DNA of 64,000 nt from Martelella mediterranea (GTDB lineage: Bacteria; Pseudomonadota; Alphaproteobacteria; Rhizobiales; Rhizobiaceae), in the NCBI RefSeq assembly GCF_021021415.1, contig NZ_JAINWJ010000007.1, positions 1 through 64,000 on the forward strand, given 5' to 3'. How positions within the stretch are numbered: the first letter of the stretch is position 1; every line of letters begins with the position of its first letter. The notes under the pieces are model-generated. The model did not search any database. It worked only from the letters and a program-made list of their open reading frames with translations, and was not told the origin of the DNA. Of this stretch, positions 3,378-11,524 are shown piece after piece. A program made the translations under genes and the position numbers.

Positions 3378-4211
3378 TCAGATCGCGGCCCGGAAGGCCG
3401 CCAATTTCTCGGCAACCCGGCTCTGAAATTCCGGATCGGCCAGCGGGATTTCCTGTTCCAGCGCCAGGAACGCGTCGATCAGCGCCGTGGCGACGATGAC
3501 GCCGTCGGCCACGCTTGCGACACCCGCGGCCATTTCCGGCGTCTTGACGCCGAAGCCGACCATGACGGGGAGCCGGACCTGCCGGCGGCAGCGTTCCACC
3601 GCTTCGGCAATCGCGTCCTGCGAGGCCGATGGGCCGCCGGTGGGGCCGACCACCGGTATGCAGTAGAGAAAACCGCCAAGCCCCGGCTGGTCCGCGGCAA
3701 AATCCTTGGCCTCCAGCGTTGGCGCCGCCAGCGGGATCATGTAGAGCCCGTGGCGGGCGAGCGCCTTCAACAGATCGCCCGCCTCGCGCAGCGGCAGGTC
3801 GGCGGCGATGATGCCGTCGATCCCGGCCTCGGCTGCCTTTTCAGCGAACCGCTCGTAGCCGAGCGCGATGATCGGGTTGGCATAGCCCATCAGCACCAGC
3901 GGTGTTGTGTCGTCCTCTTTGCGGAAAGCGGTGCAAAGCTCAAAGGTCTTTGAAAGATTGCCGCCGGCCGCCATCGCGCGCCGGTTCGCCTTCTGGATCG
4001 TCGCGCCATCGAGGATCGGGTCGGAAAACGGATAGCCGATCTCGATCAGGTCGATGCCGGCCTCCACGAATGTCTTCAGCCGGGCGAGGCTTTCCTCGAA
4101 GGTGGGGTCGCCGCCGACCGTGAAGGTCGCGAATGCCGTTCGCTTTTCCTTTCTAAGGCGGGCGAACATGGCGTCGATGCGGTTTTCGCGTTTGTCGGTC
4201 TTGCGCGCCAT
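3378..4211 (-). CDS. Tryptophan synthase alpha-like lyase, copy 1 (last gene of the operon)
   Basis: A 277-residue TIM-barrel protein that is clearly TrpA-like. The acid-base pair of TrpA is kept: Glu57 in LIEIGYPFSDP and Asp68 in ILDG, with the same 11-residue spacing as E49/D60 of Salmonella TrpA. The phosphate-binding region is partly changed: VGPTGG in loop 6, GFGVKT intact, and VATAL where TrpA has a GS pair. The ATG at 4211 has AGGA 8 bases upstream and follows the stop of the beta-like gene directly; ATG 4220 is an alternative overlapping start. TrpA cleaves indole-glycerol phosphate to indole and glyceraldehyde 3-phosphate. Here the gene lies in a sugar importer/kinase operon rather than with trpF, accD or folC, so I infer a related retro-aldol cleavage in a catabolic pathway, not tryptophan synthesis. 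Confidence 0.85.
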   Translation of the reverse strand: MARKTDKRENRIDAMFARLRKEKRTAFATFTVGGDPTFEESLARLKTFVEAGIDLIEIGYPFSDPILDGATIQKANRRAMAAGGNLSKTFELCTAFRKEDDTTPLVLMGYANPIIALGYERFAEKAAEAGIDGIIAADLPLREAGDLLKALARHGLYMIPLAAPTLEAKDFAADQPGLGGFLYCIPVVGPTGGPSASQDAIAEAVERCRRQVRLPVMVGFGVKTPEMAAGVASVADGVIVATALIDAFLALEQEIPLADPEFQSRVAEKLAAFRAAI

Positions 4212-4212
4212 A

Positions 4213-5400
4213 TCAGTCATCCTGCCAGAGAAAATCGATGTCCTTGTCGCCCGAAGACGGCGCCATCACCACGACCGTCTCATGCGGCTCCATGGTCCGC
4301 GCCACATGCTCTGCAGCGGCGAGCGCGTGTCCCGCCTCCAGGCAGAGCAACACGCCCTCGGTCTCGGCGAGACGGCGCACGGCGGCGCGGGCCTCGCTAT
4401 CCGTCACCGAAACGGTCTCGACCCGGCGGCGATGGACGAGATCGGCAAGCTGCGGCGCGGAACCCGGATAGGCAAGCCCCGGCGCGATCGAGGCGGCCGG
4501 CAATATCTGCCCTTCCGCGTCGGACAGAACCAGGGTCTCCGCCCCGTGGAAGATGCCGCGCTGGCCGTGCGACAGCCTCGCGGCGTGGAGCGCACCCGGC
4601 TCTCCGGTGCCCGCCGCTTCCACCGCGACCAGCCGGATGGAGAGGTCATCGACGAAGGACGAGAACAGGCCGATGGTGGAGGAGCCGCCGCCGACGGCGG
4701 AAAACACCGCTGCCGGGAAGATGCCGCCCTCGATGAGTTGGAGCCGGGTTTCCTTGCCGATGACCGACTGGAAGGCCGCGACCATCTCGGGATAAGGATG
4801 CGGGCCGATCGGCGCGCCGGCGAGATAGGCATCGGTGTCGGAATGGCCCATCCAATGACGGATCGCGGCGCTGGTGGCCGCACTCAGCGCCCGGTCGGCA
4901 TCGTCGACGATCTCGAGCTTCGCCCCGAACAGGCGCATTTTCTTCACCGCCGCGGCCTGCTGCGCGGCATCGCGCGTGCCCATATAGATGGTGCAGCCCA
5001 TGCCGAAACGCGCGGCGGTGGCCGCTGCGGCGATGCCGTTCTGACCCGAACCGGTGTCGGTGACGACGGCGGAAAGCCCCATGCGGCGCGCCAAAAGGCA
5101 CTGGCCGACCGCCGAATTGGCGTAATTGCCGCCATTGAAGGTCAGGTCGTCGCGCTTGAGCACGATTCGCGCGCCACCGGCGCGCGACGGAAAGGCCGGG
5201 ATATCGAACAGCGGCGTCGGGCGGCCGACGAAGCGGTTGAGAAGGAAGGTCAGTTCCGTATGGAAGGCCGGATCCGCCCACGCCTCGCGAAACGCCGCCT
5301 CCAGCCTGTCGAGCACCGGAAGCAGGACGGGCGCGACGAACTGGCCGCCGAACGTGCCGTAGCGGCCCGGCCGCGCCTCCCGCTTTTGCATGCGCGCCAT
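4213..5400 (-). CDS. Tryptophan synthase beta-like pseudoenzyme lacking the PLP lysine
   Basis: A 395-residue protein collinear with TrpB from the N-terminal RYGTFGGQFV stretch to the C-terminal GDKD. In TrpB the cofactor lysine sits in GAHKINN (K87); here the aligned segment is GGNYANS and Tyr93 (codon TAC at 5122-5124) takes its place. Other PLP-site residues also differ: E109 aligns with Asp115, H115 with Asn121 (GSGQNG), GGGSN with GGGSS, and the S377 region LSGRGDKD with PSSGDKD. No frame break or stop is present, so the gene looks selected for. The start at 5400 has GAGG 6 bases upstream and lies 1 base after the permease stop. It may serve as a non-catalytic partner of an alpha-like lyase, or carry out PLP-free chemistry. 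Alignment is from memory of TrpB. Confidence 0.85.
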   Translation of the reverse strand: MARMQKREARPGRYGTFGGQFVAPVLLPVLDRLEAAFREAWADPAFHTELTFLLNRFVGRPTPLFDIPAFPSRAGGARIVLKRDDLTFNGGNYANSAVGQCLLARRMGLSAVVTDTGSGQNGIAAAATAARFGMGCTIYMGTRDAAQQAAAVKKMRLFGAKLEIVDDADRALSAATSAAIRHWMGHSDTDAYLAGAPIGPHPYPEMVAAFQSVIGKETRLQLIEGGIFPAAVFSAVGGGSSTIGLFSSFVDDLSIRLVAVEAAGTGEPGALHAARLSHGQRGIFHGAETLVLSDAEGQILPAASIAPGLAYPGSAPQLADLVHRRRVETVSVTDSEARAAVRRLAETEGVLLCLEAGHALAAAEHVARTMEPHETVVVMAPSSGDKDIDFLWQDD

Positions 5401-5401
5401 G

Positions 5402-6334
5402 TCAGCCTCTTTCCTTACCCGCGCGGCGCACGAGCACGGCGGCGAGAATGATGGTTCCGGTGATGATATCCTGCAGGAAGGTGGAGACCCCGAGAATGGT
5501 GAGCCCGTTGCCGATGACGGCGATGATCGCCGCCCCCACCAGCGTGCCCGGAACATTGGCCTCGCCCTCGCGAAACGCGGTCATGCCGAGGAACACCGCC
5601 GCATAGGCCGAGAGCAGATAGCCGCCGCCGCCCGTCGGCCCCGCGGAGCCGATGCGCGCGGTGAGCAGAATGCCGACCAGCGCGGAGAACACGGCAGACA
5701 CAATGAAGGCGAACATGGTGTTGGAGACAATCCGCACGCCCGCAAGCCTTGCTGCCTCGCGATTGCCGCCGATCGCATAAAGCCGCCGCCCGATCTCGAA
5801 CTTGTCGAGGATCAGCCAGGCGAGGATCGCGATACCGATCAGCCACCAGGTCAGCGTCGGCAGGCCAAGGGTGCGGCCGCGGCCGATATCGCGGAAGGCA
5901 GCGGGTATGTCGCCGAACAGCGTCGCGCCCTCGCTGAGCCAGAAGGTGATGCCGCCAACGATCGTGCCGACCGCAAGCGTGGCGATGAAGGACAGCACCT
6001 CGAAGCGGGCGACCACGAAGCCGGAGACCATGCCGAACACGGAGGCCGCCGCCAGCACGATGACGCAGGCAAGCGGCGCCGGCACGCCGGCCTTGAACAG
6101 CACCACCACAAAAATCCCGCCAAAGGACACGATCGAGGCGGTCGAAAGGTCGAACTCGCCGACCGCCATGACCACGGTCGCGCCGATCGCGACAATGGCG
6201 AGCAGGGTCATCTGCTGGGTGATGTTGATCAGGTTGTTCGCCGAACCGAAGGCGTTCGGAGACGCGATCGAGAAGGCGATAATGATGACGACAAGCGCGG
6301 CAAGCGTGCCGTAACGTCTGACAAGGCCGGTCAT
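5402..6334 (-). CDS. Ribose-type sugar ABC transporter permease
   Basis: A 310-residue inner-membrane permease of the RbsC/XylH/AraH family (BPD_transp_2). It has about eight to ten hydrophobic segments and a conserved cytoplasmic stretch around GGNREAARLAGV, typical of the coupling region in this family. The start overlaps the ATPase stop by four bases (ATGA), so the two are translationally coupled, and the beta-like gene follows one base after its stop. It would form the membrane channel of a single importer with the adjacent ATPase and binding protein. The sugar cannot be named from the sequence; family members carry pentoses, hexoses, polyols and nucleosides. Confidence 0.92.
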   Translation of the reverse strand: MTGLVRRYGTLAALVVIIIAFSIASPNAFGSANNLINITQQMTLLAIVAIGATVVMAVGEFDLSTASIVSFGGIFVVVLFKAGVPAPLACVIVLAAASVFGMVSGFVVARFEVLSFIATLAVGTIVGGITFWLSEGATLFGDIPAAFRDIGRGRTLGLPTLTWWLIGIAILAWLILDKFEIGRRLYAIGGNREAARLAGVRIVSNTMFAFIVSAVFSALVGILLTARIGSAGPTGGGGYLLSAYAAVFLGMTAFREGEANVPGTLVGAAIIAVIGNGLTILGVSTFLQDIITGTIILAAVLVRRAGKERG

Positions 6335-7845
6335 GCAGCGGGGTCTTTCCGTGATTGATGTTGAAAGGCGGCGTCGATAATGCGCTCGGGCGTGAGCGTC
6401 TCGCCGGCAAGTTCCGCGGTCACCTCGCCCCCGGCCATCACGAGAACGCGGGCGGACAGCGCCAGCAACTCGTCCATGTCCGAGGTCGTCATCAGCACCG
6501 CCGCGCCCTCATCGGCGAAACGGCGCGCGACCGCGTGGATTTCCGCCTTGGCGCCGACATCGACGCCGCGCGTCGGCTCGTCCAGGATAAGGAGCCGGAT
6601 CGGCCGCCCGAACCAGCGGCCGAAGAGAAGCTTCTGCTGATTGCCGCCCGACAGTGTCAGCGGCTTGGCGAAGGGCGATCCCATCTTGACCGACAGCGCC
6701 TCGCGCACCTCCTGCGTGCGGCGCTTCAGCGCGGCAACGCTGGTCCAGGGCAGGCCGGATGACGCCCGCACCGAGGCCAGATTGGCGATAGCGAGGTTTT
6801 CGGCAATCGTGCGGCTCACGATCAGCCCCTCATGGCGGCGATCCTCCGGCACATAGGCCCCGCCGCGCTTGATCCGGTCGTCGATCCGGCCGGGACGCAA
6901 CGGTTTGTCCTCAAGGCTGATTGCGCCCACGCCGTGCGAAGTCGCGCCCCAGATGATCTTCATCAGCGAAGACCGGCCCGCGCCGATAAGCCCGTAAAGG
7001 CCGAGAATTTCGCCGGCCCGGATGTCGAAGGAAACCCGTGAGCCGTGGTCGCCGAAAGGCAGATCGCGGACCTTCAGCACGGTCGGCGCGTCGACCGTCA
7101 TCGGCCCCGGCGTCAAACGCACCTCTTCGCGTCCGGACATCAGGCGCACGAGACCGGCGCGGTCGATATCGCCGATGGCCCCTGCCCCGGCGGTCGCCCC
7201 GTTTCTGAGCACCGTGAACCGGTCGCAGATTTCCATCACCTCATCCAGCCGGTGCGAGATGAAGATGACGGCGACGCCGCGTTCGGCAAGTCGCGCCACA
7301 GCCCGGTAAAGCCTGCGCGCCTCGCCATCGGACAGCGAGGCCGTGGGCTCGTCCATCACGACCAGCCGCGCCGGTTCGCCGATCAGCGCGCGGATGATCT
7401 CGACAAGCTGTTTCTGGCCGGTCGTCAGCCGCGCCGCGGGCACGTCAAGCGGCAGGTCGGGCGCGATATCGCGCGCGGTCTCGGCGATCTCGGCGGCCAT
7501 TTGCCGGCGGTCGATGAACAAGCCGCGTTTCGGGTAGCGCCGGCCGACGAACGCATTTTCCACCGCGGTGAAATGCGGCACCAGGCTCAATTCCTGATGG
7601 ATGAAGCGAAAGCCGAGGGCCTCGGCATGGCGCACGTTCTCGATCTCGACCGGCTTGCCATCGATGCGAATCTCGCCCGCATCCGGGGCGATCAGGCCGG
7701 AAAGCGTCTTGATCAGCGTCGACTTTCCGGCGCCGTTTTCGCCCAGAAGCCCGTGCACGGAGCCGGCCTCGACCGCAAGGTCGGCGCCGGCCAGCGCGCG
7801 CGCGCCGCTGAAGCGCTTTTCAAGCCCCTTGATGCTCAGCAACAT
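6331..7845 (-). CDS. Ribose-type sugar ABC transporter ATPase (two fused ATP-binding domains)
   Basis: A 504-residue ATPase with the duplicated architecture of RbsA/XylG/MglA. The first domain has a full Walker A (GENGAGKST, residues 35-43), the signature-like LTTGQKQ, and Walker B VVMDEPTASL. The second has the degenerate Walker A usual for this family (GLIGAGRSSL, about 285), the signature LSGGNQQK, and LLILDEPTRGVDVGAK. It powers uptake through the neighbouring permease. A 70-base gap with a hairpin separates it from the binding-protein gene upstream, so it is probably expressed below the binding protein, as is usual. Confidence 0.93.
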   Translation of the reverse strand: MLLSIKGLEKRFSGARALAGADLAVEAGSVHGLLGENGAGKSTLIKTLSGLIAPDAGEIRIDGKPVEIENVRHAEALGFRFIHQELSLVPHFTAVENAFVGRRYPKRGLFIDRRQMAAEIAETARDIAPDLPLDVPAARLTTGQKQLVEIIRALIGEPARLVVMDEPTASLSDGEARRLYRAVARLAERGVAVIFISHRLDEVMEICDRFTVLRNGATAGAGAIGDIDRAGLVRLMSGREEVRLTPGPMTVDAPTVLKVRDLPFGDHGSRVSFDIRAGEILGLYGLIGAGRSSLMKIIWGATSHGVGAISLEDKPLRPGRIDDRIKRGGAYVPEDRRHEGLIVSRTIAENLAIANLASVRASSGLPWTSVAALKRRTQEVREALSVKMGSPFAKPLTLSGGNQQKLLFGRWFGRPIRLLILDEPTRGVDVGAKAEIHAVARRFADEGAAVLMTTSDMDELLALSARVLVMAGGEVTAELAGETLTPERIIDAAFQHQSRKDPAA

Positions 7846-7872
7846 GTTGATTGTCCCGCGAAAGGTGAAAGG

Positions 7873-7898
7873 CGGAGCCGCGGCTATCGGCGGCTCCG
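7873..7898 (-). other. Intercistronic hairpin between binding-protein and ATPase genes
   Basis: CGGAGCCG (7873-7880) and CGGCTCCG (7891-7898) form a perfect 8-bp stem around a 10-base loop, 17 bases past the binding-protein stop. No T-run follows on the minus strand, so it should not stop transcription fully. Such hairpins often protect the upstream message and keep binding protein in excess over ATPase and permease. Confidence 0.6.
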
Positions 7899-7914
7899 GT
7901 TTCGAAACGGCCCG

Positions 7915-8832
7915 TCAGGGGCAGGTCACGCCAAGCGATTCCGGCGTGATCATCACCGCCGGCACGTAGATTTCATCGCTTTCGGCAGCGCCGCCGGCGA
8001 GGATTTTCTCGAGCTCTTCAGCGCCAACCGCCGCCATGCCGGGGAAGTCCTGGCGGAAGGTGGCCTTAAAATGGGTGCAGGACTTGATCATGTCGACCGC
8101 CTGTTCGTTGCCATCGATGCCCATGATGATCAGCTTGGACTCCGGCAGTTCCGATTCCGTCGCCAGTTCCGCGCCGATGCCCGGATCGTCGAAAGCGGCC
8201 CAGACGCCGTCGATCTGGTCGCCATATTGCCGCAGGATGTTTTCCATGGCGATGCGGCCGTCATCGACCGGGCCCGGCACCTTGACGAAGTGATCGGCGA
8301 TCACCTTGATATCCGGATATGCCTTCAGCGTCTCATCCAGTCCGAGTTCGCGCTGATGCACGCCCGGATGGGCGGAGTGATAGAACTTGACGATATTGCC
8401 CTTGCCGTCCAGCGCCTTGAACAGCGCTTCGGAAAGCTGGGTTCCGAGCTCGAAATTGTTGGAGGTCACGTTGACATCGACATTGTCGTGCTTCGAGCCG
8501 TCAAGCGAGATCACCGGAATGCCGGCCTCGGCAGCCATCGCGACCTGGTCGCCGACCTGGGCGGGATCCGTCGAGATCAGCACGATGGCATCAGCCTTGG
8601 CGTTGACCGTGTCTTCCATGCGCGAGGCGAGCTGGCCGAAATCGTTGCGGGTGTCGATGATGGTGACATCCCAGCCGCGCTTCTCGCCTTCCGCCTTGAA
8701 GCTCTGCGCCATCTCGTTGGTCGGGATCGAGCTGATATAGGGGGTGAGAATGGTGACGTCCGTCGCGAACGCGGCGGTCGTGCTGGCAAGTGACAGCGCG
8801 AAGGCTGCAAGTGTGGACTTGATCATTTTCAT
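7915..8832 (-). CDS. Sugar ABC transporter periplasmic binding protein (ribose/LacI-fold type)
   Basis: A 305-residue secreted binding protein. Residues 1-23 form a standard signal peptide ending near AAFA, and the rest matches the two-lobe Peripla_BP_4 fold of RbsB-like proteins, with ADAIVLISTDP and GIPVISLDG in the first lobe and a QIDGVWAAFDDPGIGA stretch in the second. GAGGAA lies upstream of the ATG. It delivers the operon's substrate to the permease and ATPase encoded downstream. The pathway ligand is unknown; because the same operon has a kinase and TrpA-like lyases, a sugar or sugar-conjugate bearing a glycerol-like end is a reasonable inference. Confidence 0.92.
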   Translation of the reverse strand: MKMIKSTLAAFALSLASTTAAFATDVTILTPYISSIPTNEMAQSFKAEGEKRGWDVTIIDTRNDFGQLASRMEDTVNAKADAIVLISTDPAQVGDQVAMAAEAGIPVISLDGSKHDNVDVNVTSNNFELGTQLSEALFKALDGKGNIVKFYHSAHPGVHQRELGLDETLKAYPDIKVIADHFVKVPGPVDDGRIAMENILRQYGDQIDGVWAAFDDPGIGAELATESELPESKLIIMGIDGNEQAVDMIKSCTHFKATFRQDFPGMAAVGAEELEKILAGGAAESDEIYVPAVMITPESLGVTCP

Positions 8833-8874
8833 TCTACTGTTCCTCTTCCTTGTTTGATTTTCATGCGTGACCCG

Positions 8875-10350
8875 TTAGCGGAGCGGGTCGCCCATATCGA
8901 TGATTCCGATGGGTTTGAGTGCGTCGATGGCCTTGGTATAGGCCTCGAACATGCGATCATAACGGCGCGCGCGCTTCGGGTCCGGTTCGAAGATGGTCTG
9001 GACCGATGTCATCGCCGGCACCGCCTCGGCAATGGTCGGAAACGCGCCGACGCCGACGGCGGCCATGATGCCCGCGCCAAGACAGCCGACGTCATTATAG
9101 GAGAAGCGGTGGAGGGCCACGCCGAGACAATCGGCGCGGATCTGGCTCCATAGATCCGACCGCGCCCCGCCGCCGCCGTAAAGCAGCCAGTCGGGGCGGT
9201 AACCCGCAGCCTCGGTCAGCGCATTGAACAATTGCCGGGCCGAGAGCGCCACGCCCTCCAGCACCGCCAGCGCGAATTCCGGCCCGCTGGTCCGGCTGTC
9301 GAGACCGATGAAGGAGCCGCGGATATCGGCATCCCACAACGGCGCGCGCTCGCCTTCCAGATGCGGCAGGAACAGGATCGGCCGGCCATCGCGATCGGCC
9401 TTTCCGGCCAATTCGGCGACGTCTCCGGGCTCGATGCCGACCGTGCGGCTCCACCAGCGGAGCGAATCCGCGCCGCTCTGGGTCGGGCCGGCATTGACGA
9501 CAAGATCGTCGACCGTTGCGAAGGTGACGATGCCCGGCGCGCCGACGCGTTTTGAGCCGGCAAGCGCCAGAATTTCGCTGGTGCCGCTGACATACATGCC
9601 CTGGCCTGCGCGAAACACGCCGCAGCCGAACAGATTGCCCCAGGCATCCATGGTGCCGACAATCACCGGCGCGCGGCGGGCATGGCTGCCAAGCCGCATC
9701 TCGCCGGCGATATCGGTGAAGAAGCCGAGCGGCGGCAGGCGTTCGGCGGCGCCCTCGACGCGGGCGATCAGCGGATCGATATAGGTGAGGTCGAGACCGA
9801 CATGGCCGAAGGAGGCGATCGGATCGGCAACCGCCTTCCCGGTCAGCCGCAGCAGGCAGTAATCCTTGGGCGACAGCACATAGCGGGTTTTCTCCCAGAG
9901 ATCGGGATGATGTTTTTGAAACCACATCATCTTGGGAAGTGCGTGGCTCGCGCCGATCGGCATTTCCGCGCCCCACCAGGCCTTCTTGTCCTCTGCCGAA
10001 ATCGTCCGGTCCAGCGCCTCGGCCTCGCGCGCGGCGCGCACGTCCTGCCAGACAATTGCCGGCGCCAGCGGTTCACCGGCCGCGTCCACGAACACATCGG
10101 TATTGACCTGGCTGCAAAGCCCGACGGCAACCACCCGGTCTGGATCACGGCCAACGAGAAGCCCGTCAATCGCATCGCGCACGCCATCGAGCCAGTGTTG
10201 CGGGTCCTGCTCGACGATGCCAGGGCCGGGCCGTTCCGTCGGATAGTTCCGGCTCCAGTGATCGACGACCGCGCCGCCGAGCGTGAACAGTCCCGCCTTG
10301 ACGGCGGTCGAGCCGATATCGAAGCCGATCACATAGGCATCGTCACGCAT
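8875..10350 (-). CDS. FGGY-family carbohydrate kinase
   Basis: A 491-residue kinase of the FGGY family (xylulokinase/ribulokinase/glycerol kinase fold). The N-terminal phosphate loop is GFDIGSTAVKAG (residues 9-20), followed by the substrate-lobe residues WQDVRA, and the C-terminal lobe has VSGTSEILAL and LLYGGGGARSDLW for adenine and phosphate binding. Length is normal for xylulokinase-like members. Its start overlaps the stop of the first alpha-like gene by 8 bases, which implies coupled translation. It would phosphorylate the imported compound; the phosphate would then be the handle bound by the TrpA-like lyases, whose family uses a glycerol-phosphate substrate. Substrate specificity cannot be read from the sequence. 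Confidence 0.9.
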   Translation of the reverse strand: MRDDAYVIGFDIGSTAVKAGLFTLGGAVVDHWSRNYPTERPGPGIVEQDPQHWLDGVRDAIDGLLVGRDPDRVVAVGLCSQVNTDVFVDAAGEPLAPAIVWQDVRAAREAEALDRTISAEDKKAWWGAEMPIGASHALPKMMWFQKHHPDLWEKTRYVLSPKDYCLLRLTGKAVADPIASFGHVGLDLTYIDPLIARVEGAAERLPPLGFFTDIAGEMRLGSHARRAPVIVGTMDAWGNLFGCGVFRAGQGMYVSGTSEILALAGSKRVGAPGIVTFATVDDLVVNAGPTQSGADSLRWWSRTVGIEPGDVAELAGKADRDGRPILFLPHLEGERAPLWDADIRGSFIGLDSRTSGPEFALAVLEGVALSARQLFNALTEAAGYRPDWLLYGGGGARSDLWSQIRADCLGVALHRFSYNDVGCLGAGIMAAVGVGAFPTIAEAVPAMTSVQTIFEPDPKRARRYDRMFEAYTKAIDALKPIGIIDMGDPLR

Positions 10351-11122
10351 TGAGGCCGCTCCTCAGATCACGCAACAGCGCTCTGAGCGCATCGCCGCCG
10401 GCAAGCGCCGCGCGCAGCACCTGCGACCCGACGATCACGCCATCCGCGCCGAGCTCCATTGCCTGGCGCGCCTGCGCGCCGCCGGAAATGCCGAAACCGA
10501 GAAGGATCGGCCGCGTCGCGCCCGCCGCGCGCAATTGCGCGATGCGGTCCGCATTGCCGGGATCGAGCGTCTCGCGGGGCCCGGTCGCGCCCGCATGGGC
10601 CTGCAACATGATGTAGAAGCCGGCCTCACGCGCGCGCTCAATGGCCTTTTCGTCCAGCGGCAGCGAGACAAAAGGCGACAGGGCAACGCCGTTATCGGTA
10701 GCTGCCCGCTCCAGCCGCATGGCCAGCGGATCGTCGGCCCTTGCCACCACCAGAAGACTGTCGAGGCCGCGCCATAGGTCCGTCTCATGAAGCCCGGGAT
10801 GGGCCGGATCGGCATAGGTCATCAGCAGCGCGCGCGGCGGGTTTTGGAATTTCGCCAGCCGCTCCAGCACAGCATCGAGGTCCGTCCGCCAGCGGCCGCG
10901 ATCGGCGCGCAGCATCGACTGGCGCACATCCGGACCGTCGAGGAACGGATCGGGCGAGGCCATGCCGATCTCGATCACGTCAACGCCCTCGCCGGCATAG
11001 ATGTCCAGAAGGTCCGGGGAGACCTGCCGATCCCCCAGCGGAAAATAGCAGCTCAAAAGCGGCCTTTCCGGCAAGGCGCGACCGCGCGCCCTGGTTGCCT
11101 CGATCTCTGTTCCGGCATTCAT
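10343..11122 (-). CDS. Tryptophan synthase alpha-like lyase, copy 2 (first gene of the operon)
   Basis: A 259-residue TIM-barrel protein of the TrpA family, quite different in sequence from the copy at the other end of the operon. The catalytic pair is kept: Glu51 in VIEIGMASPDP and Asp62 in FLDG. The canonical FSDP is replaced by SPDP. Loop 6 reads AGATGPRE and the phosphate-binding C-terminal part GFGIS and VIVGSQVL is close to true TrpA, so it probably still binds a phosphorylated substrate. I start it at ATG 11122; TTG at 11128 has a slightly better spaced AGGA and is an alternative. As first gene it lies behind the operon's promoter region. I infer a retro-aldol lyase acting after the kinase; whether the two copies pair with each other or with the beta-like protein is open. 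Confidence 0.82.
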   Translation of the reverse strand: MNAGTEIEATRARGRALPERPLLSCYFPLGDRQVSPDLLDIYAGEGVDVIEIGMASPDPFLDGPDVRQSMLRADRGRWRTDLDAVLERLAKFQNPPRALLMTYADPAHPGLHETDLWRGLDSLLVVARADDPLAMRLERAATDNGVALSPFVSLPLDEKAIERAREAGFYIMLQAHAGATGPRETLDPGNADRIAQLRAAGATRPILLGFGISGGAQARQAMELGADGVIVGSQVLRAALAGGDALRALLRDLRSGLNA

Positions 11123-11524
11123 CGCCAATCTGCCTTCCTGCGCATTTTCCGATCTCGCGTCATTGCCGGGGAAGATGCGGCAATGTCATGCGATTGTCAT
11201 CCCGCGCACGGGGTTTCAGCCGCACCAGAAGGTGATTTATGCAGGATGTGGATAAGGCGGGTCGCCGCTGAGCCAAGCGGCAGCGGCCGTCAGTGCCTGC
11301 TCTTTCGGTCAGACGAGCGCAAGATGCCGAAGAATGCGCGGAATGCATATTCCGCTCTTGCGAAAGGAACGCAATCAGTCCTTCTTCGCAGAGGCGGCTT
11401 TGTCGGTGAGGCTTGAATCCCCGCCTTCACCGGAAAACTGATTTCCGCAAAAGCCGCATCCGATAAAGGCCGGCAACCCTAGTTTTCCGGCCTTCGGCGC
11501 GTTCCTGCCATAAACAAAGCCGCA
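11123..11524. other. Promoter region of the TrpAB-like operon
   Basis: These 402 bases between the operon's first gene and the APC permease stop contain no supported gene. The part next to 11122 must hold the operon promoter and contains the inverted repeat at 11161-11185. I saw no strong terminator for the permease gene (stop at 11525), nor any local regulator gene, so the operon's regulator probably lies elsewhere. Confidence 0.55.
11161..11185. promoter_or_regulatory. Inverted repeat upstream of the TrpAB-like operon, possible operator
   Basis: CATTGCCG (11161-11168) and CGGCAATG (11178-11185) are perfect inverted copies 9 bases apart, about 40 bases upstream of the first start codon. Position and size suit an operator bound by a dimeric regulator, or a leader hairpin. 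No regulator can be assigned. Confidence 0.4.

Follow-up and report, generated by a model that had tools for sequence, protein, structure and literature searches.

The window, by which we mean the whole 64,000-nucleotide stretch of Martelella mediterranea DNA analyzed here, carries on its minus strand an operon that joins a sugar-type ABC importer and an FGGY-family kinase to one homologue of the tryptophan synthase beta subunit (Tyr-TrpB) and two homologues of the alpha subunit (TrpA-like 1 and TrpA-like 2; table 1). The gene order TrpA-like 1, FGGY kinase, binding protein, ABC ATPase, permease, Tyr-TrpB, TrpA-like 2 is found in 10 of the 11 genomes counted as carriers. The exception, G390 (operon at L129:3122-11124), has no TrpA-like 1 and no close copy of it elsewhere in its assembly (81% complete), and its absence from this operon suggests that TrpA-like 1 is dispensable. 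Tyr-TrpB and TrpA-like 2 are neighbors in all 11 carriers (the two frames share 4 or 8 bases in eight and are separated by 1–2 bases in three), and TrpA-like 1 overlaps the kinase gene by 8 bases in 10/10, the start codons behind these counts having been picked by script. Neither the kinase nor the binding protein reaches the cut-off of any of its listed NCBIfam families.

Table 1. Features of the operon in the window, with positions counted from the first base of the window.
Feature	Position	Strand	Basis
TrpA-like 2, 280 aa; 8-base overlap with the Tyr-TrpB stop	3378..4220	(-)	domain search, alignment
Tyr-TrpB, TrpB homologue, 395 aa, Tyr93 for the PLP lysine	4213..5400	(-)	TIGR00263, alignment
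FNGGNYAN codons, signature motif of the clade	5116..5139	(-)	G000:C74:5116-5139
TAC codon of Tyr93, aligned with the Schiff-base lysine K87 of E. coli TrpB	5122..5124	(-)	translation and alignment
Sugar-type ABC permease, BPD_transp_2, ribose/arabinose type	5402..6334	(-)	domain search
Sugar-type ABC ATPase, two ABC stretches	6331..7845	(-)	domain search
Periplasmic substrate-binding protein, Peripla_BP_4, ribose type	7915..8832	(-)	domain search
FGGY-family kinase, nearest xylulokinases, under the xylulokinase cut-off	8875..10350	(-)	domain search
TrpA-like 1, 261 aa; maize BX1 its closest relative of solved structure (74.1 bits)	10343..11128	(-)	structure-database match, alignment

An AraC-type gene lies directly upstream of the operon in 10 of the 11 carriers. 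In the window genome (G000), the upstream AraC gene and a module of putative indole oxidation genes are on another contig, C41 (locus L113:5284-10211). Compared with the related carrier G007, the operon block (window 3378-11259) begins to match 7 bases past the end of the C41 match; the G007 alignment stops at 6893 on one contig and restarts at 6901 on the other. The split of the operon from the C41 module may thus reflect either a translocation or an assembly join. Other surroundings differ among carriers: an acetone carboxylase gamma-type gene and a short-chain dehydrogenase/reductase (SDR) gene lie upstream of the operon in G390 (L129:695-2019), and in G669 its vicinity contains genes for a GntR/FCD regulator and for a Cys/Met-type PLP enzyme (L130:16704-18619). 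At the edge of the window, two plus-strand open reading frames (43-312 and 634-888) have near-identical translations, pointing to a diverged repeat that is possibly coding on the opposite strand; Tandem Repeats Finder reported nothing for this repeat.

A TrpB Homologue with Tyrosine at the Schiff-Base Position

Tyr-TrpB contains the Pfam domain PALP, shares 41–47% identity with ordinary TrpB loci and scores 404.3 bits against the NCBIfam trpB model TIGR00263 (cut-off 392.45), a score that, together with the TrpB-like predicted fold described below, bears out its collinearity with TrpB; because it passes the NCBI cut-off, automatic annotation would misname the protein tryptophan synthase. A preliminary description of this DNA had singled the gene out for its tyrosine at the position of the PLP-binding lysine, and the codon, coordinates and open 395-aa frame that it gave are exact on the minus strand. 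We aligned the 11 members of the Tyr-TrpB clade with 91 ordinary TrpB (90 loci retrieved by similarity to Tyr-TrpB and E. coli TrpB itself, the Lys-bearing paralogues L003 and L101 being excluded); residues are numbered as in E. coli TrpB, with the window residue in brackets. The Schiff-base site is Tyr in 11/11 clade members and Lys in 91/91 ordinary TrpB, and a first alignment gave 92 Lys and 7 Tyr (99 of 101 TrpB loci, L004 and L100 being unmatched at the cut-off).

The other changes at PLP contacts listed in the preliminary description recur throughout the clade: H86 to Asn (N92), E109 to Asp (D115), H115 to Asn (N121) and N236 to Ser (S241, the change from GGGSN to GGGSS) are each found in 11/11, and the S377 region is altered through S377 (Pro in nine, Gln in one, Ser in one) and R379 (Ser in ten, Ala in one). 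Among these positions we take H86, N236 and S377 to be PLP contacts in TrpB. A substitute lysine at the Schiff-base position, the observation that the preliminary description had set against its own reading, appears in none of the 11 members. The invariant lysines of the clade are K82, K154 and K386, none of them at that position; two of the three are lysines of ordinary TrpB, and the K154 site is Arg in 89 and Lys in two of the ordinary sequences. Another lysine serving as the Schiff-base residue was hence rejected on the alignment of the 11 members.

The tyrosine motif occurs in at least 11 distinct genomes: the window genome, three others of its genus (G007, G012, G003), G128, G026, G390, G669, Rhizobium setariae (L005, which is G326), Mesorhizobium ephedrae (L007, which is G171) and Pacificibacter marinus (L006), with the duplicates L127 and L128 (of L007 and L005) counted once. 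G326 and G171 are assigned to the same family as the window genome, which would place the window in the family of these rhizobia. A scan for exact FNGGNYAN, which detects identical motifs only, found it in 8/394 genomes of the family, 2/397 of the order (one being the window genome) and 1/385 of the class (the window genome). The alignment and tree that had been proposed as a check place all Tyr-TrpB members in one clade of single origin (branch support 100/100 in a 50-row tree) on a long stem of 2.34, with P. marinus the first to branch in a midpoint drawing. A protein search of a plasmid collection gave 119 records, none of which reached 60% identity, the closest being at 45%.

Selection has evidently maintained the gene. 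Nei–Gojobori dN/dS values for Tyr-TrpB are 0.043 (G000/G007), 0.075 (G000/G012), 0.146 (G000/G003), 0.027 (G128/G026) and 0.160 (G012/G003), and in each of these five pairs the value is lower than those of TrpA-like 2 (0.055–0.220) and TrpA-like 1 (0.097–0.243). The claim of a pseudoenzyme kept by selection is therefore upheld by a single-origin clade in 11 genomes, dN/dS of 0.03–0.16 and a conserved operon, and Tyr-TrpB is almost certainly a pseudoenzyme. The loss of the catalytic lysine is also what one would expect of a decaying, functionless trpBA duplicate, a reading to which we attach negligible probability given that the frame is open in 11/11, dN/dS is low, the motif is fixed and the whole operon is conserved, and that the genome keeps ordinary neighboring trpB and trpA genes elsewhere (G000:C50). 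Chance or sequencing error is excluded by recurrence of the motif in 11 distinct genomes, and a pseudogene by that recurrence together with the low dN/dS.

A third TrpB-like gene, which bears the lysine and lies beside an AraC-type regulator, is present in the window genome (L105:9629-10861; G000:C22:34673-35824) and in G007 and G012 (3/13 genomes of the genus); two members (L003 and L101) carry G232A, R141K and D305V.

Ordinary TrpB has 133 positions with a conservation of 97% or more; every one of the 11 clade members has lost 31 of them, and 19 of these 31 are fixed to one different residue across the clade. Residues that are both new and fixed in 11/11 (numbered here as in the window) are F88, N89, G91, N92, Y93, A94, S96, D115, S118, N121 and S241. 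Retained in 11/11 are T110, G111 and G113 of the carboxylate loop, G232–G234 of the phosphate loop, E350, G380, D381 and K382, with Q114 and S235 retained in 10/11. This combination reads as a pocket re-made rather than eroded, and possibly as one suited to a new ligand or a new chemistry. The AlphaFold2 (AF2) model, built from a 28-row alignment, has a mean pLDDT of 87.0 and a pTM of 0.87, and each of the 50 PDB matches listed by Foldseek is a natural, ancestral or engineered beta chain of tryptophan synthase (TMq 0.90–0.93), so the predicted structure is TrpB-like at the level of the fold.

Such a pocket admits two readings that differ from the one we prefer; the ring binding and the PLP-free chemistry suggested in the preliminary description fall under them. 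The first is that the old PLP site was rebuilt for a different ligand, be it the ring that is released, a triose phosphate or an effector, which would make Tyr-TrpB a ligand-gated regulator or product-holding subunit of TrpA-like 2. The retained carboxylate and GGG(S) phosphate loops are consistent with it, as are the new and invariant F88, N89, N92, Y93, D115, S118, N121 and S241; however, the retained residues may be structural, and the AF2 model speaks only for a TrpB-like fold, and we regard this reading as rather unlikely. The second, that Tyr-TrpB catalyzes a novel reaction without PLP on the ring from TrpA-like 2 with Tyr93, Asp115 and Asn121 as catalytic residues, would account for the invariant new polar residues that stand where catalytic ones used to be (Asp115 at the Glu109 site among them) and for strong purifying selection. 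We consider it very unlikely, since no PLP-free catalyst of fold type II was recognized in the open-licence literature among the matches listed, and free indole already has an outlet in the linked monooxygenase described below.

Two TrpA-like Putative Lyases and a Linked Candidate Indole Monooxygenase

TrpA-like residues were read in an alignment with 60 ordinary TrpA (60 of 86 found), and loop 6 of TrpA-like 1 was checked against BX1. The catalytic pair Glu49 and Asp60 is retained in 11/11 TrpA-like 2 and 10/10 TrpA-like 1, and the two proteins differ elsewhere. TrpA-like 2 retains P53, D56, N104 and D130 in 11/11 (all invariant in 60/60 ordinary TrpA) and P132 in 10/11, residues of strips that we take to face TrpB, along with Y102, Y175, T183 and F212 (11/11; each invariant in 60/60 ordinary TrpA) and G181, G184 and G213 (11/11). 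TrpA-like 1 has lost P53, N104 and D130 in 10/10, keeping D56 in 7/10 and P132 in 2/10; it retains Y102, G181, T183, G184, F212, G213, G234 and S235 in 10/10, so that the phosphate-site residues G184, G213, G234 and S235 are all present, and its loop 6 reads TGPR in 10/10 with an Arg that aligns with BX1 Arg181. It has also lost Y175 in 10/10 (Y175M) and has a gap at 107-108. Conservation of the putative TrpB-facing strips versus elsewhere (33% vs 21% for TrpA-like 1, 46% vs 25% for TrpA-like 2 and 54% vs 29% for ordinary TrpA) separates the two TrpA-likes weakly, some strip residues also lining the active site. By these residues, TrpA-like 1 looks like a lyase able to work alone and TrpA-like 2 like one adapted to a place on a beta subunit. 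The lost E. coli Arg179 was dropped as an argument against an indole-3-glycerol phosphate (IGP) lyase; this position is mostly Met or Val in ordinary TrpA.

The retained beta-facing residues of TrpA-like 2 make plausible one part of the preliminary description, that Tyr-TrpB activates an alpha-like partner, and TrpA-like 1, having lost P53, N104 and D130, is the poorer candidate for that partner. The same proposal is weakened on the beta side, where K167 (Ser, His or Asn in 11/11) and D305 (Ala in nine, Ser in two) are lost and R141 is retained in only 3/11; these are the allosteric residues that transmit activation in TrpB. D168 is likewise changed, to Ala or Ser, in 11/11, and none of these four changes was in the earlier list. 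A mere scaffold, moreover, would have no use for new residues fixed at 19 conserved positions.

A set comprising an oxygenase, an SDR, a flavin reductase and AraC-type regulators lies, by similarity, upstream of the operon in G007, G012, G003 and M. ephedrae and downstream of it in P. marinus, so that the monooxygenase gene adjoins the operon in 5/11 carriers, on opposite sides in different lineages. The window genome holds the set in the same gene order on G000:C41, outside the window; in G128, G026 and R. setariae the monooxygenase gene is on a different contig from the operon, and in G390 (81% complete) and G669 no monooxygenase gene was found. Within the genus, 4/4 carriers and 0/9 non-carriers have the gene, and overall 9/11 carriers vs 7/23 non-carriers have it (one-sided Fisher 0.0066, a value that overstates independence because of kinship). 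The 23 non-carriers are the nine of the genus and 14 genus-mates of other carriers (none from the genus of Pacificibacter), a non-carrier being a genome in which the exact motif is absent or, within the genus, one without a close match.

The oxygenase has a Smoa_sbd domain in 4/4 loci tested (L102, L104, L006 and L007), and the SDR and flavin reductase domains were confirmed in L102, the sole locus tested for them. The nearest solved relatives of the oxygenase are 7z4x, which we take to be an indole monooxygenase (624 bits), and 9lrq (536 bits), and it scores 199 bits against 9j0h (named styrene/indole monooxygenase) and 132 and 118 against two styrene monooxygenases; its score against the StyA model is 210 bits (cut-off 550). 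Linkage to this candidate indole monooxygenase gene makes indole the likely ring released by the operon.

The linkage could also be incidental, the operon degrading some other aryl- or heteroaryl-polyol. The absence of the monooxygenase gene from two carriers and its presence in seven non-carriers would fit this, as would the under-cut-off scores of the kinase and binding protein and several changes in the lyases: A59, Ala in 60/60 ordinary TrpA, is Leu in both TrpA-likes; G234 is Ala in 11/11 TrpA-like 2 (Gly 57, Ala 1 and gap 2 in the 60 ordinary TrpA); and TrpA-like 1 carries Y175M. Position 235 of TrpA-like 2 is Thr in ten and Ser in one, Thr also being found in 23/60 ordinary TrpA. From A59L and G234A, the substrate may not be plain IGP. 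However, adjacency of the monooxygenase on opposite sides in separate lineages and retention of Y102 and F212 in both TrpA-likes speak for indole, and we consider another ring unlikely.

Proposed Role and Comparison with Known Systems

The presence of an importer, an FGGY kinase and TrpA-type lyases suggests that an indolyl-polyol is taken in, phosphorylated and then split by a retro-aldol reaction. We hypothesize that Tyr-TrpB is a PLP-free partner of TrpA-like 2 in indolyl-polyol catabolism, with indole released, an account that taken whole we hold to be slightly better than evenly probable and in which we infer the complex, the activation, the substrate and the order of steps. The ABC importer would take up an indolyl-polyol, such as indole-3-glycerol, and the kinase would phosphorylate its end hydroxyl; TrpA-like 2 would then cut the C–C bond by a retro-aldol reaction to give triose phosphate and indole, and TrpA-like 1, as a stand-alone lyase of BX1 type, would make the same cut separately. 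Tyr-TrpB would form a complex with TrpA-like 2, help the lyase into its active form and allow the ring product to leave, and with PLP chemistry lost, indole would no longer be consumed with serine; a PLP-free beta subunit makes sense here precisely because it cannot consume the indole. An iif/ind-type indole monooxygenase would oxidize the indole towards anthranilate. More tentatively, as a possibility that falls well short of even, this may be a TrpB lineage without PLP in which a new site formed by the invariant Tyr93, Asn92, Asp115, Ser118 and Asn121 senses or chemically processes the ring cut from an indolyl-polyol phosphate by its own TrpA; with the importer and the kinase, it would make up an undescribed catabolic route by which C-linked indole polyols yield indole and then its further products.

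Tryptophan synthase is a textbook case of subunit activation and channeling, and a natural beta subunit without the PLP lysine, encoded beside its own alpha-like gene, makes it possible to ask to what extent activation depends on PLP intermediates. If our hypothesis is true, plants and bacteria have separately turned TrpB to assisting the release of indole, and indolyl-polyols have a catabolic route of their own. In the open-licence literature, we recognized no work on indole-3-glycerol catabolism among the matches listed and found nothing on FGGY kinases with TrpA-like proteins; on non-catalytic TrpB, only the paper on plant TSB-like proteins discussed below (PMC12727527) fits among the matches listed.

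The linked oxidation genes resemble the Acinetobacter iif operon (iifABCDE-iifR), which in the excerpted account is induced by indole and encodes an SDR, an oxygenase, a flavin reductase and an AraC-type regulator (PMC4577076); the reductase, SDR and regulators linked here carry the Pfam domains which that account gives for iif proteins. A conversion of indole to anthranilate is proposed for ipoABC/dhoAB in the excerpt of PMC12538310. Unlike iif/ind operons, the linked set is here joined, in several lineages, to an importer–kinase–TrpA-like operon.

BX1 is a stand-alone lyase for which the excerpted text of PMC11574760 describes a Glu/Asp pair and loops 2 and 6, with Arg181 binding the IGP phosphate in simulations. 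TrpA-like 1 resembles maize BX1 (1tjr) in Glu49/Asp60 and in the loop-6 TGPR with the Arg181 counterpart (10/10), and the place of BX1 Tyr58 is aromatic (Phe in seven, Tyr in three); however, the similarity is only 74 bits, D130 (BX1 Asp125), P53, N104 and Y175 are lost, and maize TrpA carries the Arg181 equivalent according to the same excerpt, so that Arg alone is no mark of a stand-alone enzyme (PMC11574760).

Tyr-TrpB shares its fold, length, collinearity and trpB-trpA gene order with TrpB1 of E. coli and Salmonella, whereas it has neither the Schiff-base lysine nor Glu109 and its pocket and allosteric residues are altered. The functional precedent is the TSB-like protein of core eudicots, a TrpB paralogue that, in the excerpted text of PMC12727527, does not synthesize tryptophan and activates TSA to release indole, having lost E190 (almost always to Ala, but to Ser or Pro in Solanaceae) and replaced D386 with Glu. 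By our own mapping of the residues given there, E190 and D386 correspond to E. coli E109 and D305. On that partial account, both are dead beta subunits in which the catalytic Glu is lost (to Asp in Tyr-TrpB), but the D305 counterpart is Glu in the plant protein and Ala or Ser in Tyr-TrpB, and Tyr-TrpB is further without the lysine itself and many PLP contacts, a different and more radical path of change. As the excerpt presents it, the plant protein hijacks a shared TSA, whereas Tyr-TrpB has its own neighboring TrpA-like gene in a bacterial operon.
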